The notes below the pieces were generated by a model. It saw only the letters and a list, made by a program, of their open reading frames with translations, had not been told where the DNA came from and ran no database searches. A program made the position numbers and the translations under genes. This document shows, piece after piece, positions 36,297 to 64,000 of a DNA stretch of 64,000 nucleotides (position 1 is the first letter of the stretch; each line of letters begins with the position of its first letter). Location of the stretch: contig NZ_VCNH01000008.1 of the NCBI RefSeq assembly GCF_024355225.1, positions 310,001 to 374,000 on the forward strand, read 5' to 3'. Source of the stretch: Roseovarius sp. M141 (lineage in GTDB: Bacteria; Pseudomonadota; Alphaproteobacteria; Rhodobacterales; Rhodobacteraceae).

Positions 36297-36342
36297 AGTC
36301 TGTAGCGCAATAATGTTACCAATCACAGCACGAGGCCGCCCG

Positions 36343-39089: not shown

Positions 39090-41963
39090 CTAAAGCACCT
39101 CCACCCCGGTCGCCACCGCGAAGGGGCGCGGGCAGCCTTGGGTCGCGTTATCGCGCAGGCGCCAAATGCCGGTCACGTCGTCGTATAGCTCGGGAACCAC
39201 TGCATAGCCGTGGTAGAGGTTGGTCACGGTATTTTCGGTAACGGTGAACCGCGGGCCCCGATAGCCATACTGATAAAGCCCAAAATGCGGCATGATCACC
39301 TTGGAATTTGGCAGGGTTCCGCCCCCCGAAATGTCGTTCTGCCCGACCGTGACATTGTCGACATGGCCCAGATAAATACCGTGACCCTCGACCCCCGAGG
39401 CCACGGGTTGCAGGGTGATCACATTACCCTCGATCCGCGCGCGGCGCACCGTGTTGGGCGGGCGGCGCTGCCGCCAATCCGACGGGTTCGGGTCGCCCGA
39501 CGTACTGGCAGCAACGCGGATGGCATCGTTCGCGCCCTCGATACGGTTGGTCAGGATATGCAGATCCTCGATTTCGGCGCCGGCGACCGTGATGCCTTGC
39601 GCCATGTACCCTGTGCGCGCCAACATAAGGACTCTGGCACCCAGAATATTGACGCGGCGCGTTCCGACTACCGCACTGCCGCGCGGGTCGCGGATCGCTT
39701 CATCCACAAGGTTGGTCATGTGCTGGCGCAGTTCCTTTGGCACGGCGATCTGGCTGGCATCATTTTGCCGTAGCGCCTGCACCAGCTGACCCAGGATGCG
39801 CGGATCCGCGCGCACCTCGAGCCCGGAATCTCCACGCGGCAGCGGGACGGTCCCACGTTGCTTGGCACTAAAGGCCCCGTCCAGTGGCAGCACATGATCC
39901 CGCGCTCCGGCCCCTTTGATGGTCACATTGCCGGGGTTCTTTTGCGCGATGGGAAAATCCAGCAAGGACCGCCGTATGCGCCCGACCAGAACAGGATCGG
40001 CCAGAATGCGGCGGCGCACCTGTTCCGGGTCCATACTGATCGCAGAGATCACGTTGTCCTCGATCACGGCCCGGCGGGCGCCGATCACCTGCACGCCGAT
40101 CTGCGATTGCCCAACCTTCAGCGTGCAATCGCGCACCAGTACCCTGGCGACCCCATGACGCGCCTTTGGGCTGTCGTTGCGGGTCGAAATGCAGGCCGCC
40201 GTGCGGTCCAGCCCGGCCCGGCAGCGCGCGCGCACCCGCTCGAACGCCATGTCACCACAATCGACGGCGGTGATTGCCCCCAGCCTGCCACTTTGGACGA
40301 ACCGTCCGAGAACACCCGTCGGCCCGCCATTGACCGACAGGTCAACCACCCGCACCGACGCGCAATTGTGAAAGACAAGCGCCGGTTCGGTCCCGGCGAC
40401 GCTGATCACGGTCTGCGGGCCGGTACCCTCCACGGTGATGTGGCCGAGATTCTCGAACAGGACGGCGTCGTTCAGCGCAAAGTTTCCCGCCCGCAGGCAA
40501 ATCCGCGCGCTTTGATCCTGCCTTAGCTTGGCGACGACATCGGCCAGTTCGCGGGCATTGCGCACGACAAAGGTGCACAGACCGGACGCCGTGCGTCTGC
40601 ACAGGACATCCAGCGCCTCCTGCACCGTTTCGGCGCCCATGTTGCACTGGCTGTCATCATATTCGATGTCATCGGCGTGCAGGCATGTCAGCGTCGGAAA
40701 CTCGGCGCGCAGATCGGTGATGTTGCTCAGTCCCGCGCCCGCGATCCGCGCCAGCGCCAACGGCGCCCGGCGAAACCCCCAGCCCATCGGCGGAACCGGA
40801 TCGGTGGGATCCTCCATCGGGTATTGCGGCCAGACGATATTGCCGGTGGCGGCGCGAGCCTCGAACACCCAGTAGTCGCCCGTGCGATAGCTGCCGTTGA
40901 TGAACGACACCTCGATGCCGCGTTCCAGTTCGACCGGGGTCACGCTCAGCGTGCGTCCTTGCGGCACATTCCCGGTCTGATCCCAGCGCCGCACACGCGG
41001 GCGCACCATCTGGGTAAAGTCACCGATGGAGGCGCTGAACGTCACCACGTCGTCGGTCAGGGTGATCTGGCGTAAATCGCCGCTGCGCGCGTTATAGCTG
41101 TCTGCGGCATCATAGACTTCGACCCAATTGCCGGTCTGAAAGCCCAGCGCCTCGTCGTCGATGGCCCCTTGCAGGACAAAGTCGCCATCGGTGTTGCGCC
41201 CAAGGGTTGCCTCCACCGCCCCGTTCTCGCGCGACCAGACAAAGCGCGACTGCGCACGGGTGCCGCCGGTGATGATCTCGACCCGGTAGAGTTGGTTCTC
41301 CTGACTCAGATAGCCCGCCTCGGGGGGGATCTTGCAATCGCTGTCATCCGGCAGGGCACCCGCCGGAAGAGTGCGCGCCGACAGCGCACCTGTGGACGGG
41401 GACCAACCCGCAAGATCGGGAATATTGCCACACTGCGCGGCGTCGATCAGGGCGTCCCGCTCGGCTGCGGTCAGGGTGATTGCTTCGACCCCGACGCGCC
41501 ATGCGGCCTTGATCCGTGTCGCCGTATCGACCCCGGACAAGGCCGGATCGATCAGGCGCGAATCCTCCAGCCCTGTCACCTGCGCGCGGGTGGCTTCGAG
41601 ATAGATGATGACGTCTGTGCCGGTGCCGCCCGCGTCCGCCAATGGCGGCACGGCGACCCCGTCGCCCTGATCGTCATAGGTGACGCGCGCATCGTTCTGC
41701 ACCATCGCGCCGTCCAGATAATAGCGCCCCGCCCCAATCGCAAAGCCGCCTGCCCCCGCGGAGATGGCGAAACCGCCCTCGCCCTTTGGCGTTCCGGCCT
41801 GCCCGATGATGTCGCCCAACGCGGCTTCGGATCGCGCCAGCCCGATCTGGACCTGTTCGTTCCAGTCGGCATCGGTGTGCAGCCGTCCCTGTTGCATCAG
41901 CACGCCTGAATAGTGGCGCGCGGCGGCGTTCGGGGCCGTCCAGCGTGAGAAATCGCCTTTCAT
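39090..41963 (-). CDS. eCIS distal protein: DUF6519 domain plus right-handed beta-helix, fibre candidate
   Basis: 957-residue last gene of the contractile injection operon. The N-terminus MKGDFSRWTAPNAAARHYSGVLMQQGRLHTDADWNEQ is the signature of DUF6519, a domain found in eCIS and related phage-tail-like loci (quoted in parts: MKGDFSR, YSGVLMQQGR, DADWNEQ). From about residue 480 the chain becomes a parallel-beta-helix series (ICLRAGNFALNDAVLFENLGHITVEG, then repeated V/I-x-D/N-N-x-I turns such as AVIEDNVISAI, ARIEGNVITL, NVTVGQNDISG). Such folds form tail fibres or spikes that bind surface glycans. It is therefore the likeliest target-recognition protein here. No pectate-lyase active site could be identified. 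Confidence 0.78.
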   Translation of the reverse strand: MKGDFSRWTAPNAAARHYSGVLMQQGRLHTDADWNEQVQIGLARSEAALGDIIGQAGTPKGEGGFAISAGAGGFAIGAGRYYLDGAMVQNDARVTYDDQGDGVAVPPLADAGGTGTDVIIYLEATRAQVTGLEDSRLIDPALSGVDTATRIKAAWRVGVEAITLTAAERDALIDAAQCGNIPDLAGWSPSTGALSARTLPAGALPDDSDCKIPPEAGYLSQENQLYRVEIITGGTRAQSRFVWSRENGAVEATLGRNTDGDFVLQGAIDDEALGFQTGNWVEVYDAADSYNARSGDLRQITLTDDVVTFSASIGDFTQMVRPRVRRWDQTGNVPQGRTLSVTPVELERGIEVSFINGSYRTGDYWVFEARAATGNIVWPQYPMEDPTDPVPPMGWGFRRAPLALARIAGAGLSNITDLRAEFPTLTCLHADDIEYDDSQCNMGAETVQEALDVLCRRTASGLCTFVVRNARELADVVAKLRQDQSARICLRAGNFALNDAVLFENLGHITVEGTGPQTVISVAGTEPALVFHNCASVRVVDLSVNGGPTGVLGRFVQSGRLGAITAVDCGDMAFERVRARCRAGLDRTAACISTRNDSPKARHGVARVLVRDCTLKVGQSQIGVQVIGARRAVIEDNVISAISMDPEQVRRRILADPVLVGRIRRSLLDFPIAQKNPGNVTIKGAGARDHVLPLDGAFSAKQRGTVPLPRGDSGLEVRADPRILGQLVQALRQNDASQIAVPKELRQHMTNLVDEAIRDPRGSAVVGTRRVNILGARVLMLARTGYMAQGITVAGAEIEDLHILTNRIEGANDAIRVAASTSGDPNPSDWRQRRPPNTVRRARIEGNVITLQPVASGVEGHGIYLGHVDNVTVGQNDISGGGTLPNSKVIMPHFGLYQYGYRGPRFTVTENTVTNLYHGYAVVPELYDDVTGIWRLRDNATQGCPRPFAVATGVEVL

Positions 41964-41990
41964 GGTCAGAGCCTCCTTATTGAAATGTCG

Positions 41991-44084
41991 TCATGTTTCA
42001 TTGAACTGCCCGGCGGCATGGCCAAAGCGCAGAAAATCGTCGATGGAGCGGCGGATATTGGCGGCGCGTGCCTGGTGCGCGGCGCGATTGTAGGCCCCGA
42101 TCTCGCCACCGTTCTCTGCCCCGTCGGTGATGGCCGCATCGGTGCGCGAGGCCAGCAGCATGTAGTCGGCGCTGGCGTAGCGCGTGCTGTCAAAGATCGG
42201 CTCGGGCGTTTGGGCGCAGCGGTAAAGGCGCGGCGGCAGACTGCCTTCGGGCACATATGAGAAACGGATGCAGCCGATCTGGCGAAATTCGGCCGCCACC
42301 GGCGGTGCGGTGCGTCCAAAGAACAGGGTATCTGCGGTGGCCAGCCGCTCGTCGCTTTCGATGGCCACGCCAAAGCCGGCCGGGGCCGCGCGTGCGCCAT
42401 CGGCGAAGGCCCCGGTTGCGACCCGGCCCAGAATCGTGCATCGGTCGAAACCCACCGTGACACGGGCGGCCCCCGGCGCCGGTTGAAACGCCATGTCGGC
42501 GGGATCACCTGCATCAAGAATGGTCTCGCCGATGCGCACATCCATGTCCTGTACAACCTGAACCGGGCCACTGATGCAGCGGTCCATGCGCAGGGCGGCG
42601 CCCGCCGTGCGACAGTCCAGCGTCACCGCACCGGGGCTGGCAGGCATGCCGTCAATGTCCAGCGCCAGACCGGGCACCAGCGTGGAATCGCGGACATTTA
42701 TCATTGCCCCGGTGCCCATCACCGTCACCGCGCCGTTGTGCAAACGCAATCCGTTCAGTTCCAGTATGGCGTTATCGCCAAGGTCGACGGTCAACCCCGC
42801 GGCGCCGAGCCGGACCGTAGGAAACGCGCCGTCGCTTGCGACAATCCGCAGGATGCCGTCTGCGGGCACGGTGATTGCACCGTTGGCGTCGTAATGGCTG
42901 GATTGCGCCAGCAGGAACGTCCCCTCGCCGCCGACGCCGTTGATCGCGGTAACCAGATTGTTGGAGGGCGCGATGGTGACGCCATCCTCGATCGACCCGA
43001 TGCTGTTGACACGGCCATGCTCGCCGCCGCCGATCTCCAGCACGCGCGCGAAATGGCAGGTCACCCGGACCGGGCCGGCCAAGTCGGGGTCGATGACGAT
43101 CCGCCCCAGTTCGGGGTCGATCAGCGTCACGCCAGAAATGCCGCCACTGCGCGTCCAGTCCGGTTCAGGCGCAGCCGGGGCCGCGCGGCTGCCCAGGTTG
43201 GCGGCCTTGATGTTTTCAACCGGTATCGGGGTTCCCCCCACTTGGATCAGGATCGCCTTGCCGGGTCCGTAGAACCGCGACTCGTCCTCAGCCATGATAT
43301 TGCGCGTGATCGGTGCGGGCATATCGGCCTCAAGACTGGGGATTTCGACCCCGGCATCAATACCGCTGCGGGCATAGAGCTGGGCATCGCAGCCCAGGGG
43401 ATGGAACCGGAAATCGCGACGGGTGCCGACGGCGCGTGCGACATGGCCGCTGATCGAATAGGGCCGCAGCCGCCAGACGTGCAGGCCGATATTGCCAAGG
43501 TTCCAGCGCCCGTCGCCCGTCTCGATCCGACGCACTTCGACATTTCGCCCGTCGCGTTCAAAGGCCATGCCGATCCGCGCCATCGCCGGTTTGTCCCGCA
43601 TATTCACGGTGCGACCCATCGCCGGATGGGTCAGGCGCATTGACTGGGTGTGGACCAGCTTCTTCCAGTATTCGACGGCATAGACCGGCCAGCCCGAACT
43701 GTCGGCGGCGGCCTGTTCCAGCGCGCGCAGGGTGCCCTTGCGGCTGCGCAGCTCCAGCGCGTTGGCGACGCGGGCGCGCATGTCGATGCCGTCGGGGATA
43801 TCGGCCAGGCCGCGCATTCCCAGCAGGTCACCCAGATAGGGGATCGCCCAGGGCGCGCAGGTTTCGATAAACGCGTCGGCATAGTGCTGATCCAGCGTCT
43901 CGTCGACGATCTGCCCCTCGCGCGCGACCAGCGAGGCGAGCGTGCGCAGCGGGCCGAAATCCTCGATGTCGCGAGTGGTCGAGGTTGGATCGACCTCGCG
44001 CTTGATCCGGCGCCCCTGCTCGGCGTCGCGCAGACGCAGGAAGGCGGGCAGCAATTCAAACAACTGATCAGTGGTCAGGTTCAT
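41991..44084 (-). CDS. eCIS tail protein: gpI-like N-terminus fused to a beta-structured region
   Basis: 697-residue product overlapping the preceding baseplate gene as ATGA. The N-terminal ~150 residues (LFELLPAFLRLRDAEQG, LRTLASLVAREGQIVDETL, APWAIPYLGDLLG, RKGTLRALEQAAAD) resemble phage P2 gpI-type tail proteins that attach fibres to the baseplate periphery. The remainder is beta-rich with solenoid-like repetition (ILELNGLRLHNGAVTVMGTGAMINVRDSTLVPG, CISGPVQVVQDMDVRIGETIL). By position, next to the DUF6519 protein, it should be the adaptor holding the fibre. I infer this from fold and order only. Confidence 0.72.
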   Translation of the reverse strand: MNLTTDQLFELLPAFLRLRDAEQGRRIKREVDPTSTTRDIEDFGPLRTLASLVAREGQIVDETLDQHYADAFIETCAPWAIPYLGDLLGMRGLADIPDGIDMRARVANALELRSRKGTLRALEQAAADSSGWPVYAVEYWKKLVHTQSMRLTHPAMGRTVNMRDKPAMARIGMAFERDGRNVEVRRIETGDGRWNLGNIGLHVWRLRPYSISGHVARAVGTRRDFRFHPLGCDAQLYARSGIDAGVEIPSLEADMPAPITRNIMAEDESRFYGPGKAILIQVGGTPIPVENIKAANLGSRAAPAAPEPDWTRSGGISGVTLIDPELGRIVIDPDLAGPVRVTCHFARVLEIGGGEHGRVNSIGSIEDGVTIAPSNNLVTAINGVGGEGTFLLAQSSHYDANGAITVPADGILRIVASDGAFPTVRLGAAGLTVDLGDNAILELNGLRLHNGAVTVMGTGAMINVRDSTLVPGLALDIDGMPASPGAVTLDCRTAGAALRMDRCISGPVQVVQDMDVRIGETILDAGDPADMAFQPAPGAARVTVGFDRCTILGRVATGAFADGARAAPAGFGVAIESDERLATADTLFFGRTAPPVAAEFRQIGCIRFSYVPEGSLPPRLYRCAQTPEPIFDSTRYASADYMLLASRTDAAITDGAENGGEIGAYNRAAHQARAANIRRSIDDFLRFGHAAGQFNET

Positions 44085-46777
44085 GTCACGGCCTCCAGCT
44101 TGGTTGCGGCCATGTCGATGGTCAGCATCTCGGCTGGTGCGGGAATCGCCCCATCCAGCGAGGGCTGCGGCCGCGCCGAGCCCAGACGATGCTCCAGCGT
44201 CGGGGCGGCACCGCTGCGGTGAAAATGGTCGACATCGACGCCGGTGACGCCGACGACCAGTTGCAGAACCGCGATGACCTGCGCCCGGCTGACCCCCTGC
44301 CCCAGATCGCGGGCCTCAAAGCTGAAGCCCGCCTCAAGCGCCTGCCGCGCGGCGGCGATCACGTCGTCGGCCTCGAACGCCGCGTCGATGAACAGCCGCC
44401 CGACCACCACAAAGCTGGCGGCCTGATAGTTGCGCACCGAAATGGTGATATCGGCCTCGCCCGCGCCTTGCAGTGCGGCCAGCAGATTGGTCATGTCCTC
44501 GCCGCCGTCTGGCAGCAGCACGCCGCCCTCGCCCGCCACGGTGACGAAGATCGGGCGCCGGAAACCGTCAAACGTCCAATCGGCCCGCGCCTTGGCGATG
44601 CCTGCAAAGGCGCGCGCGTAATCCTCGTAGTCGCGCAAGGACACCACGCGGCCCAGCGTCAACACTTTCAGCGGTGCGTTGCGGCGGGCATCATCGATGC
44701 CTTCGGCATCTGCCGCCGCTGCTGGGGCCAACGGGTTGACGACGGATTTCAGCCCGGCGGGTTTGGTTGCCAGCAGCGACAATTGCCCCGCCTCCAGCAT
44801 CCCGTCACTACCCGCCCCCTTGCGATAGGCGGCTTCGACATTGTCCTGACCCGTGGGCGGGCGCAGGCCCTTTTCGCCGTCGCCAAAGACAATGCTCGCG
44901 GTGTCGTCCTCGGCAATCCGCAGGATATAAACCCGGTCCTCGGGGCCCGCATCGCGGAAATCCTCCACAAGGGTCCAGAGCACGCCGTTGACCCGCACCT
45001 CCAGCGCCGGGGCCATACCTGTTTCGGACTTGGCCGAAACATGTGTCAGCGGTTTGCTTTTCAGCGGATAGGTGGCAAAGCTGCGCGCGGCATCGCCGTC
45101 GCCGATGATCTCGGCCACGGTTTCACCATGGGTCGCCTCGGCGACGTTGGCGTTGAGGGTGACCGTGTCGCGCAGGTAGGCATGGGCGGGCTGCGCGGTG
45201 AAGGTCAGAACCGACAAGCCGTCGTTCAGGACATTGTCGGAAACGGTCAGGATCTCACTGGCAACCACACCCGCCAGATCGGCGCGTTCGCCTGTCAGCG
45301 CCACCGTCTTGCCGGGAAACAGTGACAGTTGCGCCGAACCCAGTTCGACCGAATCCGCGCCCAGCGCGCCATGCGCCGCACCGACATCGTGCGTGATGGG
45401 CAAGGCCGCCAGAGGCAGAGCCTGCGGCGCGGCATAGACGGTGGTTTTGCGCGTCAGAAATCCCGATGCCTGGACAGTGCCGGACGGCCCGGTGAGAGAC
45501 GCATTCACTTCCAGCCGGGTGACTTTGGTCGACAGACCATAAGCCTCAACCGACAGCAGTTCGACCCCGTGAACCACGGAATGCCCTTCGGAGAAGGCAT
45601 CGCGCACCAGCACGTATTCGCCTGCCACGATCTCGGGGTATTCGCGGTCCAGATAGATATAGACGTGGTTTGCGGGAGGGGCCGTATCGCCGGTATGCCC
45701 TTGCGTGTCGGTAATCGCACCCGGGGAGGCAACCGGAGTCGCTGGCGGGAACGCCGCGACGATATCGTCGATCAGTGGCGAGGGTTGGGTGATGGCGTTG
45801 TTGCCAAAGCAGCCTGCCTTGACCCTCATTTTCGCGGGCAGGATCGGATCGAAGGACAGATAGGGCACTGCGGTGATGGCGGTGGCCAGCGTGAAGTAGG
45901 ACACGTGGTTGATCGCGGTTGCCGTGGACAGCGCCGACACCGACCAACTGGCCTGCGACACCGTCGAGATCAGCGACAGGGTGGTCAGGGGGGCGCTGGG
46001 CGCCCACGCCATGACCGGCGTGTAGGCAAAGAAAAAATAGGGGAAGGTGCCGGTGGGCGCGGCGCTGAGCGTCATCAGCTTCTCGCCCGCGGCCAGTTCC
46101 GCGACGCCATTGACCGACCGCAGGAAACCGGCCTTGCTGGCGTCCTCGTATTTTACCGGCACCTTGCCTTGCAGGAACAGCACCGGATCGCCGGGGGTCA
46201 CGGCGGCACTGCCCGCCGCCAGCCGGACCGTATCGCTTTCGCCGTCCAGTTCCTGTGGATAGCTCATCCGCGGGGTCATTGCGTTCCAACCGGCATAAGC
46301 GGTCAGCGGCTCGATTGTTTCATATATCTGCGGGATTTCACCGTCGCGCGGGACCGACCGGACCTGTAGGCCCACATCATACTCCAGCACATCTTCGGGG
46401 GCGTCGTTTGCTTCGGCGATGAAGGCCAGATGCACCGATGCGGCCTTGGCCGGCGCCAGCTGGTAGCCGATCAGGCTGGCATGGGCGCGCAGGCTGGCGC
46501 GGTCGGTGGCAGTGCGCAGATAGGCCTCGTTCGCGGTGCGCTCGCCGTAGAAGGTCAGCGTGTCCAAAACGGCGGCCCAGGCATCCAGCACCCCCAGCGT
46601 GACATCGCCCTGCCCGCGCGCGCGCAGATCCGACAGGCCGGGGCGGTTGGCATCGGCAAGCCCCCGGCGCATCGACTCGTAGAATGTCTGATGGGTGCCG
46701 GCGCGGGCGGCGATCTGGGGCAGGCCGGGACGGTTATCGACATCCTTCGGGGTGGGTTTATCCAGTGAGCCGCTCAT
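44081..46777 (-). CDS. eCIS baseplate wedge protein, Afp12/Pvc12-like
   Basis: Large baseplate component of 898 residues. The N-terminal GVLDAWAAVLDTLTFYGERTANEAYLRTATDRASLRAHASLIGY segment is characteristic of the second baseplate-J-related protein of Afp/PVC-type systems, and the C-terminal third has the baseplate J-type core (DDARRNAPLKVLTLGRVVSLRDYEDYARAFAGIAKARADW and ITISVRNYQAASFVV). It overlaps both neighbours by four bases (ATGA). It probably forms, with the 827-residue protein upstream, the ring that triggers sheath contraction. Confidence 0.85.
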   Translation of the reverse strand: MSGSLDKPTPKDVDNRPGLPQIAARAGTHQTFYESMRRGLADANRPGLSDLRARGQGDVTLGVLDAWAAVLDTLTFYGERTANEAYLRTATDRASLRAHASLIGYQLAPAKAASVHLAFIAEANDAPEDVLEYDVGLQVRSVPRDGEIPQIYETIEPLTAYAGWNAMTPRMSYPQELDGESDTVRLAAGSAAVTPGDPVLFLQGKVPVKYEDASKAGFLRSVNGVAELAAGEKLMTLSAAPTGTFPYFFFAYTPVMAWAPSAPLTTLSLISTVSQASWSVSALSTATAINHVSYFTLATAITAVPYLSFDPILPAKMRVKAGCFGNNAITQPSPLIDDIVAAFPPATPVASPGAITDTQGHTGDTAPPANHVYIYLDREYPEIVAGEYVLVRDAFSEGHSVVHGVELLSVEAYGLSTKVTRLEVNASLTGPSGTVQASGFLTRKTTVYAAPQALPLAALPITHDVGAAHGALGADSVELGSAQLSLFPGKTVALTGERADLAGVVASEILTVSDNVLNDGLSVLTFTAQPAHAYLRDTVTLNANVAEATHGETVAEIIGDGDAARSFATYPLKSKPLTHVSAKSETGMAPALEVRVNGVLWTLVEDFRDAGPEDRVYILRIAEDDTASIVFGDGEKGLRPPTGQDNVEAAYRKGAGSDGMLEAGQLSLLATKPAGLKSVVNPLAPAAAADAEGIDDARRNAPLKVLTLGRVVSLRDYEDYARAFAGIAKARADWTFDGFRRPIFVTVAGEGGVLLPDGGEDMTNLLAALQGAGEADITISVRNYQAASFVVVGRLFIDAAFEADDVIAAARQALEAGFSFEARDLGQGVSRAQVIAVLQLVVGVTGVDVDHFHRSGAAPTLEHRLGSARPQPSLDGAIPAPAEMLTIDMAATKLEAVT

Positions 46778-49622: not shown

Positions 49623-49635
49623 GTCGATGCCTTTC

Positions 49636-51601: not shown

Positions 51602-51606
51602 GAGGG

Positions 51607-51894: not shown

Positions 51895-51906
51895 GTTGAA
51901 ACTCCT

Positions 51907-55500: not shown

Positions 55501-57620
55501 TTTACGGCAGCCTTCAACGCCTCGCCCAGCGCCTCGATCGCCGCAATGATGGCGCTGGCGGCAAGATCGATCAGCGCAAGCGCGGCCTCCTTGACCGCAT
55601 CGATGATGGCCGACACGGCCGAGCGCACCGCGTCAAACACGTCGTTGATGAACTTGGTCAGCTTGTCGAACTGGTCCGCCACCCAATTGGCTGCCCGCTC
55701 CCACCAGCTGAGGTTCTCGGCCTCGCGTTCCTGCCTGTTGCGCTCGTTTTCGGCCTCGGTTTCGCCGCTGGTCACCTCGGCCTCGGCGTCGGTTTCAGCC
55801 TGATCGAAATCAGCGGTGACCTGAGATTCCGCGGTGCTGACCTGCGTGTCGATTTCAGTCTGCGCAATGCCGCGTTGGGTGTCTGCCTCGGCTTCGACAT
55901 CCGAAACATGCTGCGCTTGGGCATCCACCGCTGTCTGGCGCGCGTCCTGCACCTCCTGGCGGCGCGTGCCAACCTCTGCGCGCTGCTGGTCGTCGGCCTC
56001 GGCGTTCAGGCGGTCCTTCTCGGCCTCGGCCTCAAGCAGCTTTGTGTCGCGTTCCGTGTTACGGGATTCGACTGCCGTGCCGACCTCGGCAGTCGCGGCG
56101 TCCATGCTGGAGGCCATGCTATCGTTGTGATGCGCGTCAAACAGCGCGATCACATCGTTGTCCAATTCCTTGTCACGGAAGTCTGCGGCGCCTTCGACCG
56201 GACCTGCGGCCTGCTCGATCTGCGGCGTTTCGCGGGGCTCCATGGTGAAGTCCTCGCGCACCTGTTGCAGTTCCACCTGCTCGGGGCCCGGCCCGTCCAG
56301 AACGCCCTGCGTCGCCTCTTGCCTCTTGCTTATCGCATCGGCGCGGGCGGCCTCGTCCTGATCGGCGACGCGCTGCGGATCGCTGGCCCCTTCCAGCGGC
56401 ACCTCGGGGCGTGCGCCTGCCGAGGTCTCCACCTCATTGTCATCGGTCGAAACATTGCTGAAGGCGCGGCCCAGCCCCTGTGCATCGCCTTCGCTGAACC
56501 AGCTTGAAACCAGCGCGTTGCCGCTGACATTCAGATTGGCCGTGCCGGCGTCCGGGGTCGGATCGACCTGCGGTTCGGGCGGCGGGGGCGGCGCGCCATC
56601 CTCCAACTGCGCCTCGCGGGCCTCGGGTGTCTGCACCGGCTCTGGCGCGGCCACTTCGTCGGTGCCGGACATCTGCGCCTGAAACTCGGGCAGGTCGGCC
56701 TCAAAGCTTGCCTGATCCTGCGCGGCCATCTCGCCGACTTCGCCCTCCAGCCGGTCATGGTGCATGGCCTTGACGGACGGAGGCGCGTCCTTGAACGCCA
56801 CCATCAGCCCATCGGCATCCTCGGCCCCTGCCAGCGCCTCCTCGGCCTCGGCGGTGGCGGCTTCGTCGATTTCGATATCCGGCATCGGCGCAGGCTCGAA
56901 TGTCGGCACCGGCTCGTCCGGTATCGGCTCTCCCAGATTGACGGGGGCCATTGCATCCGTGCCGCCCGGCTCTGCCCGGCTTTCGTCGGTCTGGGCGCCG
57001 GTTTGCGCGCTCGTAACGGCAGGGTCAGGCGCGGCGGGATCCTCGACCGAAGCCTCGAATTCCTGCGCCGCCTCGCGGTCGCTGCCAACCACGAGGTCGG
57101 CCTCGTCCAGTTCCTCGACCCGGCGAAAGGCGACCGCGCCGGGATAGAGCCCGGCGGACATGTCCGGCACCGGGCGACCGGCCGCCACCAGCGCCTCGGC
57201 CTGCGCGGCCTCGGCTTCGGCAGCGCCCTCCATGCCGCGCGGGCCGGTTGCGCGCTGTTGCAGGGTATGCGCGACCTCATGCGCCACGATCGGCTTGCCC
57301 GAGTTGGCCGAAAGCAACACCGCTTCGCCCTGCACTGCCGCCTGCGCGCCCTCGGCATGCAGCGCCGCATCCACCTCTGGGCCCTTGTAGACGCGGATAC
57401 CGCCAAGATCGGCGTTGAACTGCGCCTCAAGCTCTTGCCGATAGGGCAAGGGCTGTCCCTGCAACGCGGCCAGCCTCAGCCGGTCGACGCTGACATGGGT
57501 TTCGACCTTCTGCTTTTGCGGGGCCGCCTGATTGACATGCACGGCCCAGCGCTTGCCGGTCTTTGGCTTGGCCACCTTGTCAGGTGCAGCCTTGGGGGTT
57601 TTGGCGGCCCGCGCGCTCAT
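52554..57620 (-). CDS. Giant DUF4157 protein of the injection system, cargo or tape-measure candidate
   Basis: 1688 residues, the largest product here; ATG at 57620 overlaps the 81-aa gene stop. Domain order: basic leader (1-50); DUF4157 (about 52-126) with a zinc-peptidase-type HEVAH at 114-118, a domain known as a marker of eCIS cargo; Glu/Pro-rich disordered region (130-470); charged coiled coil (about 515-640); a 430-residue block of amphipathic and hydrophobic helices (about 645-1072) containing a GFLSNLVEAF...KFGGNFLEHLKRGIIGWLTG core also seen in other DUF4157 proteins; an acidic linker; then a C-terminal region (about 1100-1688) I do not recognise. No other gene here looks like a tape measure, so it may set tail length, be loaded cargo, or both. 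Confidence 0.75.
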   Translation of the reverse strand: MSARAAKTPKAAPDKVAKPKTGKRWAVHVNQAAPQKQKVETHVSVDRLRLAALQGQPLPYRQELEAQFNADLGGIRVYKGPEVDAALHAEGAQAAVQGEAVLLSANSGKPIVAHEVAHTLQQRATGPRGMEGAAEAEAAQAEALVAAGRPVPDMSAGLYPGAVAFRRVEELDEADLVVGSDREAAQEFEASVEDPAAPDPAVTSAQTGAQTDESRAEPGGTDAMAPVNLGEPIPDEPVPTFEPAPMPDIEIDEAATAEAEEALAGAEDADGLMVAFKDAPPSVKAMHHDRLEGEVGEMAAQDQASFEADLPEFQAQMSGTDEVAAPEPVQTPEAREAQLEDGAPPPPPEPQVDPTPDAGTANLNVSGNALVSSWFSEGDAQGLGRAFSNVSTDDNEVETSAGARPEVPLEGASDPQRVADQDEAARADAISKRQEATQGVLDGPGPEQVELQQVREDFTMEPRETPQIEQAAGPVEGAADFRDKELDNDVIALFDAHHNDSMASSMDAATAEVGTAVESRNTERDTKLLEAEAEKDRLNAEADDQQRAEVGTRRQEVQDARQTAVDAQAQHVSDVEAEADTQRGIAQTEIDTQVSTAESQVTADFDQAETDAEAEVTSGETEAENERNRQEREAENLSWWERAANWVADQFDKLTKFINDVFDAVRSAVSAIIDAVKEAALALIDLAASAIIAAIEALGEALKAAVNALLAEHFPAIAAALNDAIDSAVQVATDAVNAVAEGLKAAVSALLDALAAGLDAILAVYQAAVNAALAIARAALTGDWGALAKLILEPVLMALGIQPAAFYEVIARAVEALDIIIDDPIGFLSNLVEAFVGGVRKFGGNFLEHLKRGIIGWLTGALGGDIQIPEKFDLMGVLDLARQILGLTVDMIRRVAVRVLGEEAVERIEFVMGYMVELITGGFSALWERIMADLSSLKDMVLDAIKSFLVERVIMAAISWLAGLFSPVGALVKLVMTIWNFIMFLKDQLARIFQVVQTIVNTMWEIATGVLEPAMLGVESVLSRLLPIAIDLLARLLGLGNVAGKVQEIINNVRQSIEDAIVNLINRVLSALTGGRVGGTAGDEDDEAAEGGQIMAPIAVRGGGESHTLSIEDQGETVVPMIRSTPQTLQSWLDGRTGPPFEDLAASSGWEGEAKTTKRAELETLVDRAKTEEAELDRAAEAAEDADNADPATATDEKQATAQEGEQTKRALEQVLEFFGIDPNRGLGDHFADDLAALGNDALAARLRANVLNRLDVPRYLTMSWAQARTAIPADTAIPGTWSRPASSDAILRSLHDATFRAGVKRVVEAHLGPQEDFDPQSDKMNDFLSDYLTGDLNRSPHPAAILGEILQGRDGNAVADAVAPAIRAAADRKFANQLEYDFKFKDVTGSYYKTVIVPNPAALLDGNFGPYFDDDNENTAGAGHGVPQALVFFLRDGNSKRASKNRTRMADAVRGADPGNHEWIPASKAATILTATAARIESGGDVDSASGLAMLLKFQHEVRTPTSKLVFKPQSGLANADRTIPYFSKAHVNSGEAYNDLSADQKTEFYPATGPAHMEQVPVLQAHAGGLDAGTLAGGQVARGAQLQWSSPDWHGQLGDRLNGPINDNIASTADGLAIKDAILGFYRETIWQGAQRLPAPKRVHFDFYYSSSDAQWRTYGQLKDNSRRAYSATVDALESDITRVLQ

Positions 57621-57862
57621 AGCCACAACTCCGCGAACAGTGCCCGCGCCAGATCGCGCCCGATACCCTCGGGGGTCTGCGACACCACCTGCAGCTGCCC
57701 CAGATCAATGTCTTCCACGTCTTCGCGGGTCTTGCCGGGGGGCAGGCCATCGCGGGTCAACAGCTCTACCAGCGTATCCTCGAAGGCATTCGCCGTGCGC
57801 CGGCCTTCGTCTTCGGTCATGCCCTCCAGCCGCAGGGTGTCAATTTCGATGACAGCACTCAT
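57617..57862 (-). CDS. 81-residue protein of the injection operon
   Basis: Small acidic protein overlapping both neighbours by four bases. It starts MSAVIEIDTLRLEGMTEDEGRRTANAFE and has a repeated Asp/Glu-rich helical character, ending DLARALFAELWL. The IDTLxLEGMTxxEGRRxAxAF pattern recurs in small proteins next to the ATPase in other eCIS loci, as far as I recall; it might be a chaperone or loader for the DUF4157 protein that follows. No motif gives a function. Confidence 0.6.
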   Translation of the reverse strand: MSAVIEIDTLRLEGMTEDEGRRTANAFEDTLVELLTRDGLPPGKTREDVEDIDLGQLQVVSQTPEGIGRDLARALFAELWL

Positions 57863-59688
57863 CCCAGCGCCCTCAGCTGGCCTTCGGGTAGCGGCTTGCC
57901 CAACTTGGCAATCTCGCTGCGCGCGGCCCTTGCAATATGGCTCATGCGGACCGGGCCGCCCTCACCTGCGGCTAAAAAGGCGGCAGAGATCGCGATGGAG
58001 CGGATGTGACCGCCCGCCAGTGCCAGCTTGGACAGGGCCTGATAGTCCAGCGGCTCGACCGGCATCTGTTGCGGAAACACCACCTGCCAGATGCGCATAC
58101 GCAGGGCCGCATCGGGGAACGGAAAATCAAGGATGAACCGGAACCGGCGCAGAAACGCCTCGTCAACCGTCGCCTTGAGGTTGGTCGTGACGATGGCACA
58201 GCCGGAATAGGCCTCGAGCCGTTGCAGAAGATAGGCGGTTTCGGTGTTGGCGTGGCGGTCAAGACTGTCCTTGACGTCCGTGGTGCGCTTGCCGAACAGT
58301 GCCTCGCCTTCGTCGAACAGCAGCACCACGCCCGAATTTTCGGCGGCATCGAAAATGCGCGCCATGTTTTTCTCTGTCTCGCCGATGTATTTCGACACGA
58401 TGGCCGACAGGTCCACGCGGTAAAGATCGGCGGCTTCGCCGTCAGGGCCCAAGGTCGTGGCGACGACCTCGGCGGCCATGGTCTTGCCGGTGCCCGACGG
58501 GCCCGAAAACAGCGCCGCCAATCCCAGCCCGCGCGCCGATTTCGCGCGAAAGCCCCAATCGTCCAGAACCTGCCCGCGGTGCTTTTGAAACGCGGCTAGC
58601 TGGCGCAGAAGATCCATCTGTCCGTCAGGCAGCACCAGATCGCTCCAGCTGGCCTGTGGCTCGATGCGCTGCGCCAGCCCGTCAAGGCTGCGCGCGGCAC
58701 GGGTGCGGGCGGTGGCCCAGATACTGGGGGCAAGGCCCATATCATAGGTGGCGACGGCATCCCGCTGGGCGGTCGGGCTTAGGCGCAAACTGTCGGTCAG
58801 GAGGGTATCCCCGCCCGTTTCGGGCTGAAATTCAGCCACCGGACGGCGGGTGGCGGGCGTGTCCTTGCCCCAGATCAGCAATGGCGCGGTGACCAGATCG
58901 GCCAGCACGTCAGCGATGGCGCCGGATGACAGGACCAGCCCGGCCTTGAGCAAGACCAGATCGCGGTTCAGCATCGCCGCGATGCGCGCTGGCGGCAGAT
59001 CAATCGCGTCGGGGTCCAGCGCGAAGGCACGCAAACCCAGCCAGCCAAAGGCGGCAGTGGCCAGACGTTCAGCGCTCAGACGATCCTCCAGCCGCAGATG
59101 GATCAGCGGGAATCCCGGCTGTTCCCGCGCCGCGACCAGTGCATCGGACAGACGGTCGCGGTCCGCGTCGGGCACGCCTTCGCGATCGTGCAGCGCGGTC
59201 AGGGCATCGGCCAGCGCCTCACCCGGCTGGGCATGGCCGTGCAGCGCGTGGATCAGCCCGGTATCGACGGCCAGCAGACGCTGCGCCAGTCCCGGCCCAG
59301 GCACCAGATCGACCAGCCCGGCCTGCGCCAACAGGCCTTGTGGGGCCAATGCCTTCAACGCGCCTGCGCCCAGCACATGCGCCACCAGTCCCGGTGTCGC
59401 GCGGCCCTGCAAAGCCAACGGATGCGCGCCTATCGCAGCGGCGGCGGCGGTCCCAAGGTCCGGCGCAGCGGCCAGCAGAAAGGTGTCGCGCACCCGCCCC
59501 GCAAGGCCAAACCGCAAAAGCACCTCGGCCAATCCAACCGGCCCAAGGGCCACGAGCTGCTTCAGCCCGGCATCCAGGTCGGGCGGCGTCCCCTGCTGCG
59601 CGCCCAGCAACCACCCGATCCGCGCGGCCGCCAGTTCCAGCGCCTTCATCTGCAGGGCCTCTGCCGGGATGATCTCGGCGCGGCTCAT
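57859..59688 (-). CDS. AAA+ ATPase, Afp15/Pvc15-like
   Basis: 609-residue ATPase. The C-terminal AAA+ domain has Walker A GPSGTGKT (396-403), Walker B VVLLFDEGEALFG (454-466), the arginine-finger segment FLRRFRFILDFPFPD and the sensor-2 C-terminal helical bundle. The N-terminal ~380 residues are helical and unassigned. A single ATPase of this type is a near-universal member of Afp/PVC-type injection loci and is required for assembly in Afp; it may load cargo or act as a disassembly/assembly factor. It overlaps the DUF4255 gene and the 81-aa gene. Confidence 0.9.
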   Translation of the reverse strand: MSRAEIIPAEALQMKALELAAARIGWLLGAQQGTPPDLDAGLKQLVALGPVGLAEVLLRFGLAGRVRDTFLLAAAPDLGTAAAAAIGAHPLALQGRATPGLVAHVLGAGALKALAPQGLLAQAGLVDLVPGPGLAQRLLAVDTGLIHALHGHAQPGEALADALTALHDREGVPDADRDRLSDALVAAREQPGFPLIHLRLEDRLSAERLATAAFGWLGLRAFALDPDAIDLPPARIAAMLNRDLVLLKAGLVLSSGAIADVLADLVTAPLLIWGKDTPATRRPVAEFQPETGGDTLLTDSLRLSPTAQRDAVATYDMGLAPSIWATARTRAARSLDGLAQRIEPQASWSDLVLPDGQMDLLRQLAAFQKHRGQVLDDWGFRAKSARGLGLAALFSGPSGTGKTMAAEVVATTLGPDGEAADLYRVDLSAIVSKYIGETEKNMARIFDAAENSGVVLLFDEGEALFGKRTTDVKDSLDRHANTETAYLLQRLEAYSGCAIVTTNLKATVDEAFLRRFRFILDFPFPDAALRMRIWQVVFPQQMPVEPLDYQALSKLALAGGHIRSIAISAAFLAAGEGGPVRMSHIARAARSEIAKLGKPLPEGQLRALG

Positions 59689-60998
59689 GGATCAAGATCC
59701 GCCACAGGCCCGTCAAAGCCCGCCAGCCCCATCGACAGCGCGCTGGCGGCGCCGCCGATCTCGACACGGATCAGATAGGTATCTGCCGCCACATCGACGA
59801 CATCGGCGATGATCTCGGTGCCAACAGCAGACCGCGACCGGCAGCGCACCGAAAACGCGTCATTGCCACCGCCCGGTAGCGGATTGAACAGTAGCGCCGC
59901 CACCTGATCGTCGCCCACCGGATGCGCCAGCGTCGCGGCAACGGTTCCGCTGAAACGCCCTGACGCAGTGGTCCCGGTGACGACATGGCTGTCCAGCTGC
60001 GGCGTGATGACCAGCGGCGTGGCGTTCGACATCTCCCACAACCGGTCGCCGCCGCCGCCCTCGGGTGTGAACAGATGCTCGATCTGGAGCAGCGACAGCC
60101 CGGCCCGGATATCGGCAGGCAATTGCACATCGACGCGCAGGTTGGTGGCATTGGCCGGATCGACCGCCAATATACGGTCGCTGAGCCGCACCCGCATCTG
60201 GGCCGAGGCCAGTGCCGTCCCTTCAATGGCTACCCAGTCACCCGGTTCGATCCCCGCCATCAGGTCACGCGCTGTCCCGGCTCCGCCCGGCAGGCGTGCG
60301 ATGCGGCTGATTGTCGGGCTGCGCAACTGCGCGGTGCGCCCGCCCAGCGTCAGCACCGGCAAGGACGACCGAACCGGCGTACGGCTTTCGATCAGAACAC
60401 AGGACACTTGATAGAGCGACGAGGCCCGCAGCGGCGCCGAGAATGCCGACCACAGGTTCGACAGCCCCTCAAGCTGCATCGGATGCTCGGTATCGGGCAC
60501 GGCGGGGGTGATGCGGATCTGCTCGAACTGATCGGCCAGGTCCGAGGCGAGGATGGACCGCAAGCCCGCAGGCAGCAAAGAGGCATCGACCGGCGGCGTC
60601 ACACCGCCCAGCGCCGTGCGGATCGCGGCGCGGGTCAGCACCGGGGTTTCGTGCAGGATCTGCATCCCGTAGCCAAGGATGATTTCGGCGCTCAGTGTCT
60701 CGGCGCCCGTGGCAGTCAGGACAAAGTGCAGATCCAGCGCCAGAAACGGGCTGTCCAGACGGTTTCCCTGTTGGCCCCGCGCCGGCAGCCGTTCGCTGGA
60801 CCACGCGGCGTTGCGGGTGGCGTGCCACATATAGATATTCAGCCGGTTGGGTGCCGGATCCTCGGACGAGACTTGATCCAGCGGCATCGCGGTCACATCA
60901 ATCGGCCCGATCGCATCCAGATCGGCATTCGCCACGCCATCGTTCAGCATGTCCATCAGGACGGCAGTGACAGAGGCGATGGCGAGCGCGTTTGACAT
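59685..60998 (-). CDS. DUF4255 protein, tail terminator/cap (Afp16-like)
   Basis: 437-residue product with an N-terminal DUF4255 domain: IASVTAVLMDMLNDGV, the NIYMWHATRNAAWSSERLPARG stretch, LDLHFVLTATGAETLSAEIILGYGMQILHETP. DUF4255/Afp16 proteins terminate sheath and tube growth and cap the distal end of the particle. The C-terminal 200 residues are beta-rich and Pro/Gly-bounded, with no assignment, longer than minimal Afp16, so extra surface domains are possible. Four bp separate it from the proline-rich gene. Confidence 0.87.
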   Translation of the reverse strand: MSNALAIASVTAVLMDMLNDGVANADLDAIGPIDVTAMPLDQVSSEDPAPNRLNIYMWHATRNAAWSSERLPARGQQGNRLDSPFLALDLHFVLTATGAETLSAEIILGYGMQILHETPVLTRAAIRTALGGVTPPVDASLLPAGLRSILASDLADQFEQIRITPAVPDTEHPMQLEGLSNLWSAFSAPLRASSLYQVSCVLIESRTPVRSSLPVLTLGGRTAQLRSPTISRIARLPGGAGTARDLMAGIEPGDWVAIEGTALASAQMRVRLSDRILAVDPANATNLRVDVQLPADIRAGLSLLQIEHLFTPEGGGGDRLWEMSNATPLVITPQLDSHVVTGTTASGRFSGTVAATLAHPVGDDQVAALLFNPLPGGGNDAFSVRCRSRSAVGTEIIADVVDVAADTYLIRVEIGGAASALSMGLAGFDGPVADLDP

Positions 60999-61002
60999 GG
61001 GC

Positions 61003-61770
61003 CTATCTTTTCTTCCAGCCGAGGTAATCTGTCAGACCGCTTGGTGCCGGGGTGCGGGCGGCAGGCCCGCCCCGGCGCGGCGGCTCGGGGCGCGCCGGGG
61101 CTGGTGCCGGCGGCGGCGATGCAGGCGCAGCCGGGCGTGACACCTCGATGCGGCCGATGCGGATGACGGGGGGGGTAGACGCTGCCGTTGGGGCCGAGGC
61201 CGGTTCTGCTACAGGGTGCGTCGGCGGATCGGTCAGCCTGTCCATTTTCGATGCAGGAGGTTCGGCCTGCACGCTCGTTTCGATGATCCGTTCCGGCGGC
61301 GCCGACGGGATGTCGGGCGATTCGCCCGACGTATCGGGGCGCGGCTCAGGCATTCCCACTTGAGTCCGGCGCTGCGGTTGCGATCGGGGCTGTTGTTCGC
61401 TGTGCGTCCGGTCTAATCGCACCGGAATGTCCTGCGTTGCTGCGGCGGGGTCGCCGTCGCGCACCACCGGATGGAGGGGTGCGGATTGCACGCTGTCCAG
61501 TTTCGCGTCGGGTGGGGGCGGCGCGCGTGCAGGCGACGGTGTCGACTGCACCATGTCCGCCTGGCCTGATTTCCGCGGCAGGGAAGCCGGCGCTCTCTGC
61601 GGTTGGGGGGATGGAGGCCGGGGCGCAGGCCTTGCCACGGTCTGCGCCGCTTCTTCGCGCAGGCCCATGGCGTCCGTGCCGCCCTCAAAACGCGCCTGCG
61701 GGCGGGGCCGGATCGCGGGCTGCGCGCCGGGGGCAAAGCGCGCGGCAAGGCTGTCGAACAGGCCGGTCAT
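61003..61770 (-). CDS. Proline-rich injection-system linker protein
   Basis: 255-residue, mostly disordered protein (ATG at 61770, overlapping the preceding gene). The body is Pro/Ala/Arg-rich and low in aromatics. Two conserved patches stand out: the N-terminal MTGLFDSLAARFAP and, near the end, VIRIGRIEVSRPAAP followed by the C-terminal GLTDYLGWKKR. Small proteins ending in an IRIGRIEV segment plus L-x-DYL tail are a recurrent eCIS family in my recollection. It may act as a flexible chaperone or tether; no enzymatic motif. Confidence 0.6.
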   Translation of the reverse strand: MTGLFDSLAARFAPGAQPAIRPRPQARFEGGTDAMGLREEAAQTVARPAPRPPSPQPQRAPASLPRKSGQADMVQSTPSPARAPPPPDAKLDSVQSAPLHPVVRDGDPAAATQDIPVRLDRTHSEQQPRSQPQRRTQVGMPEPRPDTSGESPDIPSAPPERIIETSVQAEPPASKMDRLTDPPTHPVAEPASAPTAASTPPVIRIGRIEVSRPAAPASPPPAPAPARPEPPRRGGPAARTPAPSGLTDYLGWKKR

Positions 61771-62429
61771 TCGCCCAACTCCGCCAGCCAGATCGCACGG
61801 CGCGCGGGCGTCATTGCGGTCAGCTCGGCCTCGGACCAGCCAAAAGCGCGGGCCAGTTTCGCCACCTCCTGCACCACCCGGCGGGCGGCCTGTTCGATCC
61901 GCGCCCAGGCAAAGCCCGCAACATCCAGGGGTTGTACCTGCACCGCGCCGCACGCGGCGCATTCCAGTTTCAGATCGACCTGCAAGGCCGGGTCAGCCTC
62001 CAGCAGGGCCGCCTGCGCCGCCGCTTCGAATGCGGGATCGCCCCATGGGGCGTCTTTGGACAGGGCAGTGCGGGCCAAGTTACCCCCCCGGATGTCGGAC
62101 AGCCGTGGGAAGCGCACCGGATACCGCGCCCCGCCATAGGGCACGTGCAGCCCGTCGCCCAATTCACTGCGCGCGGGCAACGCGAAACCGGCAGGCAGGG
62201 CGAACTCCACGCCCTCGCCGCATTCTTCGCAGGTCATTACCGCCTCTTGCGGGCCGTCAAACAGCGCCGTCAACCACCCCCAGATCGTGCGATCCACATC
62301 GCCGATGGACAGCGCGTCGGCATCGCCGCCGCCCGCCGCACATAGCAGCGCAGCCCGGTCCGCGGGACCCGCCGCCATCCCCTGTCCGTAAATGTCGAGA
62401 ATGGCGGACCCTGTGGGCGCCGCCAACAT
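61767..62429 (-). CDS. eCIS assembly protein with two CxxC pairs
   Basis: 220 residues; ATG at 62429 overlaps the tube stop. Two cysteine pairs (CEECGEGVEF and CAACGAVQVQ) about 100 residues apart could bind zinc. The C-terminus ARAFGWSEAELTAMTPARRAIWLAEL resembles the end of T4-type baseplate-hub assembly and phage tail chaperones. In other injection loci a protein of this kind is encoded directly after the tube. Inferred role: chaperone or baseplate assembly factor; not a structural tube part. Confidence 0.65.
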   Translation of the reverse strand: MLAAPTGSAILDIYGQGMAAGPADRAALLCAAGGGDADALSIGDVDRTIWGWLTALFDGPQEAVMTCEECGEGVEFALPAGFALPARSELGDGLHVPYGGARYPVRFPRLSDIRGGNLARTALSKDAPWGDPAFEAAAQAALLEADPALQVDLKLECAACGAVQVQPLDVAGFAWARIEQAARRVVQEVAKLARAFGWSEAELTAMTPARRAIWLAELGE

Positions 62430-62956
62430 CAGCTTGCCGGTTCGAGGAACTCGACCTCGGCCGGTTCGCTCACGTCGTAATCCCGCTCCCAGCCCTCGTT
62501 TTCCAGCTTGATCATCTGGATCGCAACGGCGTTTGCGTTGGCGTCCAGTTCGGGCAAAGCCTGATACTCGGACACCCACGCCCGGAAAATCCGATAGCTG
62601 ATCGCCAGCTGCCCGGCCTCGTTGTAGAAATCGAGGATCACGTCCTTGCGGAAATCAGCCAGCGACACCTCGGCACCAAGCCCCGAGCCGAAATTCCAGA
62701 TCTTGTTGGCCCATTGTTCGAATTCGACGTCATGGGTCACGCCGCGCTCCAGCGTGATGCCCTCGAACATGGTGCGACCGGGGCTTTTGCGCGGGGTGGA
62801 GGGATCGCCCCCCTCGCGATGCTCGACGATCTCGGTGGTGCGCTTCAGCGGGCTGACCTTGGAAATACCCGCGACGTAGCGGCCATCCCATTTCAGGCGG
62901 AACTTGAAGTTCTTGTAGGGATCGAAGCGGTTGGTGTTGACGGTAAACTGTGCCAT
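62429..62956 (-). CDS. Inner tube protein (gp19-like)
   Basis: 175-residue tail-tube protein that polymerises into the hexameric inner tube. The chain opens MAQFTVNTNRFDPYKNFKFRLKWDG and has the family pattern KRTTEIVEHREGGDPSTPRKSPGRTMFEGITLERGVTHDVEFEQW (core RKSPGRTMFEGITLERG) and YRIFRAWVSEYQALPELDANANAVAIQMIKLENEGWERD. One tube gene is visible, where Afp has several. A TAGGAGG ribosome site overlaps the sheath stop codon. Confidence 0.93.
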   Translation of the reverse strand: MAQFTVNTNRFDPYKNFKFRLKWDGRYVAGISKVSPLKRTTEIVEHREGGDPSTPRKSPGRTMFEGITLERGVTHDVEFEQWANKIWNFGSGLGAEVSLADFRKDVILDFYNEAGQLAISYRIFRAWVSEYQALPELDANANAVAIQMIKLENEGWERDYDVSEPAEVEFLEPAS

Positions 62957-62968
62957 CTGAAAGTCCTC

Positions 62969-64000
62969 CTAGGCCGCGTTCGGGAAGCGCTGCTGAATAC
63001 GGATCACGACGAATTCTGCCGGGCGAACCGGGGCAAAGCCGACATAGACGTTCAGGATGCCAAGGTTGATGTCCGCCTGCGTCGTCGTCTCGCTGTCGCA
63101 TTTCACAAGGTAGGCATCGCGGGCAGACGCCCCCTGAAACGCGCCCTGGCGGTGCAGCTGGTTCATGAACCCGCCCACCGTCATGCGGACATTGGCCCAG
63201 AGCGGTTCATCATTGGGTTCGAACACCACCCATTGCAGACCGCGTTGCAGCGAGTTTTCGATATGAAGCGCCAGACGGCGGACATTGACGTAGCGCCACT
63301 CGGACGCCCGGGCATCGGCCCCGTCAAGCGTGCGCGCCCCCCAGATCACCGAATTGTAGACCGGAAACGTCCGGATCACGTTGACGCCCGAGGTGTTCAG
63401 CGGTCCCTGCTGGCGATCGGTCATCACATCGACCGGATTGCCACCCGAAACGCGGGCCTCGGTGCCTGCCGGGGCCTTCCAAATGCCGCGCGTGGCGTCG
63501 GTACGGGCGATCAGACCGGCGGCCATGCCGCTGGCCCCTATGACGCGCGGCGCCAGTGGGTTCAGCGGATCCGGCCCGGTCACGCGCGGATAGTACAGCG
63601 CGCCATCCGGCCCGGCAGCAGCCCCCAGCGCCGTCAGCCACGACTGCATGTTCCCCCGGTTCACGTCGGGCGGCGAATCAATCACCAGAAAGGCGAAATT
63701 GTTGCGACAGAAGGTCGTGGCCTCCTGATAGATCGCCGCCGAAGCGGAGTTGTCGGTGAAATTCGCCGCCCCCGGCAGGCACATCAGATTGAACACCTGC
63801 GGCACAATCGCGTTCAGTGCATACAGGCCGGTGCCGTTGGCCTCGGACCCGCGAATGGCGTTCGATGCCGCCGCCGCCCAGCCGGCGTCGCCCTCCATCG
63901 TGCCGTCGCCGCCGCCGGTCAGGGCCGTAAAATCCCCCGCCGCACCTTCCAGCAGCGCGTCAAGGTCCGTCGCGTCGACCGCACTGATCTGCGTGCGGGC
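62969..64000 (-). CDS. Contractile tail sheath protein (5' end beyond the window)
   Basis: The frame is open to the window edge (343 residues visible, N-terminus missing); an internal ATG at 63898 is not the start because in-frame coding continues to 64000. The visible C-terminal half includes ENSLQRGLQWVVFEPNDEPLWANVRMTVGGFMNQLHRQGAFQG and KCDSETTTQADINLGILNVYVGFAPVRPAEFVVIRIQQ, which is the classic C-terminal sheath domain (core LQWVVFEPNDEPLW). Assembles around the tube and contracts. The remainder of the locus continues to the right. Confidence 0.94.
   Translation of the reverse strand, partial: ARTQISAVDATDLDALLEGAAGDFTALTGGGDGTMEGDAGWAAAASNAIRGSEANGTGLYALNAIVPQVFNLMCLPGAANFTDNSASAAIYQEATTFCRNNFAFLVIDSPPDVNRGNMQSWLTALGAAAGPDGALYYPRVTGPDPLNPLAPRVIGASGMAAGLIARTDATRGIWKAPAGTEARVSGGNPVDVMTDRQQGPLNTSGVNVIRTFPVYNSVIWGARTLDGADARASEWRYVNVRRLALHIENSLQRGLQWVVFEPNDEPLWANVRMTVGGFMNQLHRQGAFQGASARDAYLVKCDSETTTQADINLGILNVYVGFAPVRPAEFVVIRIQQRFPNAA

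Follow-up and report, generated by a model that had tools for sequence, protein, structure and literature searches.

A probable Tme-type contractile injection system with an exchangeable C-terminal effector in Roseovarius sp. M141

Results

A 64,000-nucleotide stretch of the Roseovarius sp. M141 genome (the window; positions 310001-374000 of RefSeq contig NZ_VCNH01000008.1, which makes up 3.67 Mb of the 4.5-Mb genome) carries an unbroken operon of 18 minus-strand genes that occupies window positions 39090-64000 and continues rightward for 537 bases of a sheath gene. The operon encodes a contractile injection system (CIS) and is neither a prophage nor a classical type VI secretion system (T6SS). 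The longest open reading frame (ORF) of the cluster encodes a predicted effector that resembles Tme, a tape-measure-related effector of Streptomyces davawensis, and has 1690 amino acids (aa; 52554-57626, minus strand) with an N-terminal DUF4157 domain, a tape-measure-like chassis and a C-terminal warhead. We consider it probable that the operon specifies a Tme-type CIS with an exchangeable C-terminal effector that works by the mechanism proposed below. At the level of sequence, comparison with relatives shows that the C-terminal segment of the effector (about residues 1265-1690; 52557-53834, minus strand) can be replaced as a cassette: it recombines from one relative to another, and the chassis and the rest of the machine stay constant.

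In G852, a genome of the same genus, the remaining genes of the operon share 85-100% identity with those of M141, the exception being that for a Pro-rich protein (70%). In blocks of 65 residues, the 1690-aa protein is 82-98% identical over residues 1-1235 (one block, 77%), falls to 65% in the block at 1236, and then to 23-38% over residues 1301-1690. DNA identity drops at about codon 1263 and is again 98% in the first block past the stop codon, and the neighbours of the effector gene, which encode an 81-aa protein and a CIS_tube protein, are 95-96% identical despite the different warhead. The tail fibre is 86-96% identical in residues 1-640 and 76, 60, 88 and 74% identical in the blocks of its C-terminal third; with 60% in its worst 80-residue block, the fibre varies too, so that the effector end is the most variable place but not the only one.

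Phylogenies of the two parts of the effector gave different partners. The window protein and the G852 protein (P0014) were joined at 100/100 in the chassis tree, whereas in the warhead tree P0014 grouped with P0015 at 100/100. For clades picked after identities or trees had been seen, placing the window protein and P0014 together was rejected for the warhead (log-likelihood, lnL, 235 lower; p = 0.0004) and for its folded domain alone (lnL 182 lower; p = 1e-37), and in the reverse test the union of P0014 and P0015 was rejected for the chassis (lnL 272 lower). A second pair, P0016 and P0023, is 80% identical in the chassis and 26% in the warhead, and its union in the warhead tree was likewise rejected. 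The trees carried warnings for long branches (P0018, P0013 and P0017, the last joined with P0021) and for composition (P0021 was odd, and in the chassis P0020, P0021 and P0016). With three warhead types that rest partly on weak basal branches (78/75), the chassis tree required nine changes of warhead type, compared with 10.5 on average when labels were shuffled (nine or fewer in 36 of 200 shuffles). Thus, warhead type and chassis are nearly uncoupled.

The protein that carries the cassette begins with an eCIS_core (DUF4157) domain containing an HEVAH motif (residues 60-127; 57246-57449, minus strand; 5e-12, 46.4 bits against a cut-off of 22), continues with the tape-measure-like chassis (residues 604-1077; 54396-55817, minus strand) and hydrophobic helices, and closes with the C-terminal part. 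The whole genome contains one eCIS_core protein and one cap protein. Among the 11 PHROG matches of the 1690-aa protein at E ≤ 0.1, seven are tape measures (best, 7e-11), and the Pfam Tape_meas_lam_C match reached only 0.014. The stop codon of the gene adjoins the inferred CIS_tube start, so that the gene lies just upstream of the baseplate genes. In five other loci of the family, this slot between the ATPase/81-aa genes and CIS_tube is filled by different DUF4157 genes; all eight slot ORFs matched eCIS_core, one of them (G386) just below the cut-off. A search with residues 640-1080 returned 328 homologues at E ≤ 1e-10, the best 120 of which are 52-100% identical, come from several phyla and include proteins of Chloroflexus, Nostoc, Geodermatophilus, Microbacterium and Blastocatellia; 15 of the best 120 carry a PF13930 nuclease, and the Chloroflexus proteins with PF13930 share the chassis. 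Plasmid records gave a weaker chassis match (about 32-40%), mostly to residues 811-1074. Long DUF4157 proteins with various C-terminal toxins have been reported earlier (PMC8213781). We regard the 1690-aa protein as the likely cargo; the original prediction missed both this protein and its relation to Tme.

Within the exchanged segment lies an unnamed domain that is predicted with confidence to fold (residues 1430-1690; 52557-53339, minus strand), here called the HEW domain. No Pfam family, no Pfam nuclease at E ≤ 1 and no clear PDB or viral fold match was detected for it, a lack of match that excludes no fold. The part following the chassis was separable in 119 of the best 120 homologues; of these tails, 118 were 200 aa or longer and formed 13 clusters. 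One cluster, with 74 members, holds the domain of the window, a share biased upwards because the homologues were ranked by likeness to the window's chassis. Carriers include Paracoccus, cyanobacteria, and metagenome-assembled genomes of Azospirillaceae and Blastocatellia. A class-wide search, in which at most three candidates were scored per genome, found the C-terminus in 1 of 385 genomes (that of M141), a count qualified by the Paracoccus and Azospirillaceae carriers of the protein search. Six short warhead-bearing proteins were found, four of them on contigs of less than 2.3 kb. PF27499 is annotated on P0058 and also on P0087, which has the HEW domain; a newer Pfam name may thus exist for part of these proteins. 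As a separate observation, a DUF4157 protein of 1662 aa in a Nostocales cyanobacterium (L051:115-7696) combines a chassis and a warhead of this same kind; behind its gene lie an LRR-like and a YbjN-like gene that could be concerned with immunity or regulation.

The absence of a Pfam family or known fold match would also suit a C-terminal domain that is a structural plug or length module and no effector at all. It has, however, near-invariant polar residues, each present in at least 67 of the 74 proteins, the segment is exchanged as a unit, and homologues carry nuclease domains at the same place; we consider a plug or length module quite improbable. By analogy with Tme, the HEW domain is probably an enzyme, and it is a candidate new effector family.

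The remaining genes, all on the minus strand, make up the machine itself. At the right end, the window holds the C-terminal 343 of the 522 aa of the sheath (62969-64000; best solved relative 9ezm, 8e-66). The original prediction had advised a look to the right of the window for remaining genes and had named a missing N-terminal half of the sheath as a refutation: the sheath N-terminus was found just there, in the 537 bases that complete the ORF (L004:469-2037, minus strand; subtilisin-like and C-terminal sheath domains), and nothing further of the operon follows. Next in order come the inner tube (gp19; 62429-62956; profile, 3e-41); an accessory protein of 220 aa (61767-62429), which has paired CxxC and an end that weakly resembles DUF6760 (12.5 bits, below cut-off) and from its position may be tail-assembly-chaperone-like; and the Pro-rich low-complexity protein of 255 aa (61003-61770), which has no assigned function and, with 31% identity in G800, is the least conserved non-effector gene in both G800 and G852. 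These are followed by the cap or tail terminator (Pvc16_N, DUF4255; 59685-60998; 4.5e-35); the AAA+ ATPase (57859-59688; AAA, 2e-21), which we take to occupy the Afp15/Pvc15 position; and the 81-aa protein (57617-57862), which may be a small helper and has matches in G001, G125, G357, G800 and G852. At the locus of G802, of the same genus, neither the Pro-rich nor the 81-aa protein had a match.

Beyond the effector gene lie the CIS_tube protein (51907-52557; 5e-6, 26.8 of 27 bits and so 0.2 below cut-off), presumably an Afp7-like tube-baseplate adaptor; a 95-aa LysM/Phage_tail_X protein (51607-51894; 17.5 of 22 bits); the hub (50459-51601), assigned by a PHROG tail protein match (8e-5) and its conserved place, with no Pfam match; a spike with an OB domain (gpV; 49965-50462; 2e-22); and a PAAR-like tip with weak matches to DUF4280 (49636-49968; 0.003, 18.6 of 26.3 bits) and PAAR (0.03, 14.9 of 27 bits). 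The baseplate wedges comprise gp25 (49257-49622; 1e-14), a J wedge (46774-49260; TIGR02243, 3e-76; solved relative 9gtp), a second J wedge (44081-46777; TIGR02243, 9e-53; PHROG, 4e-18) and a Tail_P2_I protein (41991-44084; 5e-4, 20.3 of 20.6 bits, 0.3 below cut-off). Both J wedges are above the cut-off of NCBIfam TIGR02243, while Pfam Baseplate_J, at 20.7 of 21.1 bits, is below its own. The operon ends with the tail fibre (39090-41963), which has a DUF6519 (eBAP5) N-terminus (8e-29) and a weak beta-helix match at the C-terminus; the C-termini of eBAP5 fibres often have beta-helix folds (PMC12923769). Gene starts for the 220-aa, Pro-rich and CIS_tube proteins were set where homologues begin.

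Of the 394 genomes of the family that were sampled, 38 had the cap family, as did 7 of 84 of the genus, with M141 counted in both; presence is therefore patchy. The order of detectable genes is common to nine of ten loci fetched from the family, which represent 10 of its 38 carriers and for the most part those with the best cap matches, and to all three same-genus loci fetched (of six other carriers). The 220-aa protein has a match at the same place in nine of the ten family loci, and the place of the Pro-rich protein is fixed in the same number, one of its many low-complexity matches sitting there. Gene detection in these loci was incomplete, with no PAAR match in G250 and no effector match in G386 or G250. 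The locus of G035, with only the AAA gene in common, was not counted as the same type. A Streptomyces europaeiscabiei plasmid matched 16 of the 18 operon proteins, all but the Pro-rich and 81-aa proteins, in the same two structural blocks with internal order kept and one block inverted. Three other genomes of the genus (G854, G787 and G812; L076-L078) have a short cap instead, with frames of 204-208 aa, which suggests a second CIS lineage in the genus.

The original prediction of at least 18 same-strand genes of extracellular CIS (eCIS) type in a Rhodobacterales genome was borne out by the 18 genes found, and a profile search of the products matched tube gp19, Pvc16_N/DUF4255, AAA, eCIS_core, the OB spike, gp25, DUF6519 and TIGR02243. 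One locus thus holds the eCIS/CIS set of sheath, tube, cap, AAA ATPase, spike, gp25, J wedges and DUF4157. Tail-like genes are also what a prophage remnant or R-type tailocin would contribute, and adjoining prophage genes had been named as a possible objection. As had been predicted, no capsid, portal or terminase gene was present among the flanking genes tested (a subset of the flanking ORFs); in one PHROG comparison, 4 of 10 flanking proteins matched PHROGs without assigned function and none was a head gene. Given in addition the AAA ATPase, DUF4255 cap, eCIS_core and DUF6519 and the order shared among family loci, a prophage or tailocin origin is extremely improbable. The claim that the system is not a T6SS also held, in that DotU/TssL was absent from the one genome searched (the E. 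coli control was positive; TssJ and TssM were not searched).

To the right of the operon, the next gene is FadL-like and on the plus strand, followed by HlyD-like and DDAH-like genes; to the left are a GNAT-like ORF, recognized by eye, and a CoA mutase. GC content marks no island: it is 0.63-0.68 in the blocks of the operon and 0.61-0.67 elsewhere in the window. Around the three same-genus CIS loci, the 40 kb fetched held no match to six tested flanking genes of the window, and the operon therefore sits elsewhere in those genomes. An empty-site comparison failed, since in the eight of the searched same-genus genomes whose best matches to the mutase and FadL-like genes lie on one contig these are at least 0.9 Mb apart, against 27 kb here. 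The B12-dependent CoA mutase gene (36154-38312, plus strand) is broken: two ORFs that overlap in different reading frames cover profile positions 254-512 and 42-255, while the best matches in 39 same-genus genomes are mostly a single open frame of about 650-740 aa, which indicates that either the gene itself or its assembly contains a frameshift. The DDAH-like (dimethylarginine-dimethylaminohydrolase-like) ORF overlaps a 551-aa ORF without a Pfam match at 0.01 (L002:4643-5821 and 5574-7229, minus strand). The flanking genes at L002:14908-19509 and 33358-34761 (both minus strand), which strongly match phage families without assigned function (phrog_3736, phrog_15577 and phrog_17452), are probably metabolic genes that phages also carry.

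Discussion

The Roseovarius operon resembles the Afp and PVC eCIS in its sheath, which Afp2-4 and Pvc2-4 match, and in other core parts. Those systems have three sheath genes where this operon has one; here there are also separate hub and spike genes and a DUF6519 fibre, and tape measure and effector form one protein. The closer likeness is to Streptomyces davawensis, whose Tme is described as the largest ORF of its cluster, located just upstream of the baseplate genes, with an N-terminal DUF4157 domain, a coiled coil, a hydrophobic tape-measure-like part and a C-terminal effector domain, and whose clade includes Proteobacteria and Chloroflexota (PMC11126660). According to the same description, Tme differs in its EndA-like nuclease end and cationic segment, in place of which the Roseovarius protein has the HEW domain, and its cluster ends with a peptidoglycan-binding protein, whereas this one ends with the fibre. 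Sle1 and Sle2 of Streptomyces lividans (PMC13277306) are similar in being tape-measure-like cargo associated with DUF4157, but are separate proteins.

In the mechanism that we propose, the structural genes would build a sheathed tube on a fibre-bearing baseplate, and the AAA ATPase together with the DUF4157 end would load the 1690-aa protein into the tube; once there, the long helical region of this protein may double as a tape measure. Contact of the DUF6519 fibre with a target would trigger contraction and the ejection of spike and 1690-aa protein. By analogy with Tme, the hydrophobic tape-measure helices would then insert into the membrane of the target, and the HEW domain at the C-terminus would act in the target, probably as an enzyme. 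The particle is most likely released and aimed at other organisms.

Several points weigh against this reading. Assembly, loading, ejection and toxicity are predicted from the genes, and the kinship to S. davawensis Tme is argued from layout, place and a published description. The four other PHROG matches of the 1690-aa protein comprise one endolysin, one baseplate hub and two entries of no known function, and tape-measure matches can be inflated by Ala-rich helices. No gene next to the effector resembles an immunity gene, but a genome-wide immunity search was not made and a distant one is possible. With regard to free release, the best solved sheath relative, 9EZM (deposited with PMC11566945), belongs to a haloarchaeal CIS bound to the cytoplasmic membrane, and the next, 8BKY, is the sheath of the cytoplasmic CIS of Streptomyces coelicolor.

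The first of these sheaths would favour a machine that remains tethered to the membrane of the producing cell and discharges when contact is made, in the manner of the haloarchaeal T6SS-like CIS. The Halogeometricum borinquense CIS, or archaeal T6SS, is reported to have two cis11 genes and to carry DUF4157 cargo. In a related locus of Haloferax larsenii, hub and spike are encoded separately, alongside two baseplate genes and DUF4157 genes. In the report on H. borinquense, however, this mode of action is tied to a six-helix membrane protein of the clade and the toxins have downstream immunity partners (PMC11566945), neither of which is apparent in the Roseovarius operon. In a hydropathy scan of the operon, the strong hydrophobic stretches were those of the effector, and the AAA ATPase, hub and second J wedge showed no more than short peaks; furthermore, TssL was not found in the genome and a fibre gene is present. 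Anchoring to the producer is therefore unlikely. The second sheath would fit a particle that stays in the cytoplasm and acts on its producer, in stress death or development, as in Streptomyces; the lack of an immunity-like gene beside the effector agrees with this, as does the reported activity of S. davawensis Tme in the producer's own development (PMC11126660). The fibre gene speaks for a different use, since a fibre gene of conventional form is missing from the clusters of S. coelicolor and S. venezuelae, and the fibre is most variable in its C-terminal third, as a receptor binder would be. We consider a self-acting particle distinctly improbable.

For a released particle, eukaryotes are more likely targets than sister bacteria. 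If a toxin were directed at sister cells, its immunity gene should move together with it; the genes beside the cassette are constant, which makes other targets more likely. The literature searched yielded no paper on a Rhodobacterales CIS (subscription papers and supplements were outside its scope). In the portions available, PMC8320451, PMC10286705 and PMC11762876 confine the CIS term to their reference lists, PMC12205151 concerns Algoriphagus, and the main text of the eCIS surveys PMC8213781, PMC11297309, PMC12923769 and PMC12210884 does not contain "Rhodobacter".

The operon adds to the genus Roseovarius one described chromosomal CIS, with its only DUF4157 cargo candidate named. As a tentative and wider possibility, marine Rhodobacterales may possess a Tme-type syringe with a constant chassis and exchangeable alleles of an undescribed enzyme family of new fold (HEW / VRT.T / QxHxG), in which cassette recombination would be driven by resistant eukaryotic targets rather than by sister bacteria. 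The two near-identical operons, which differ in their warheads, offer a natural comparison from which the role of the warhead could be learned.

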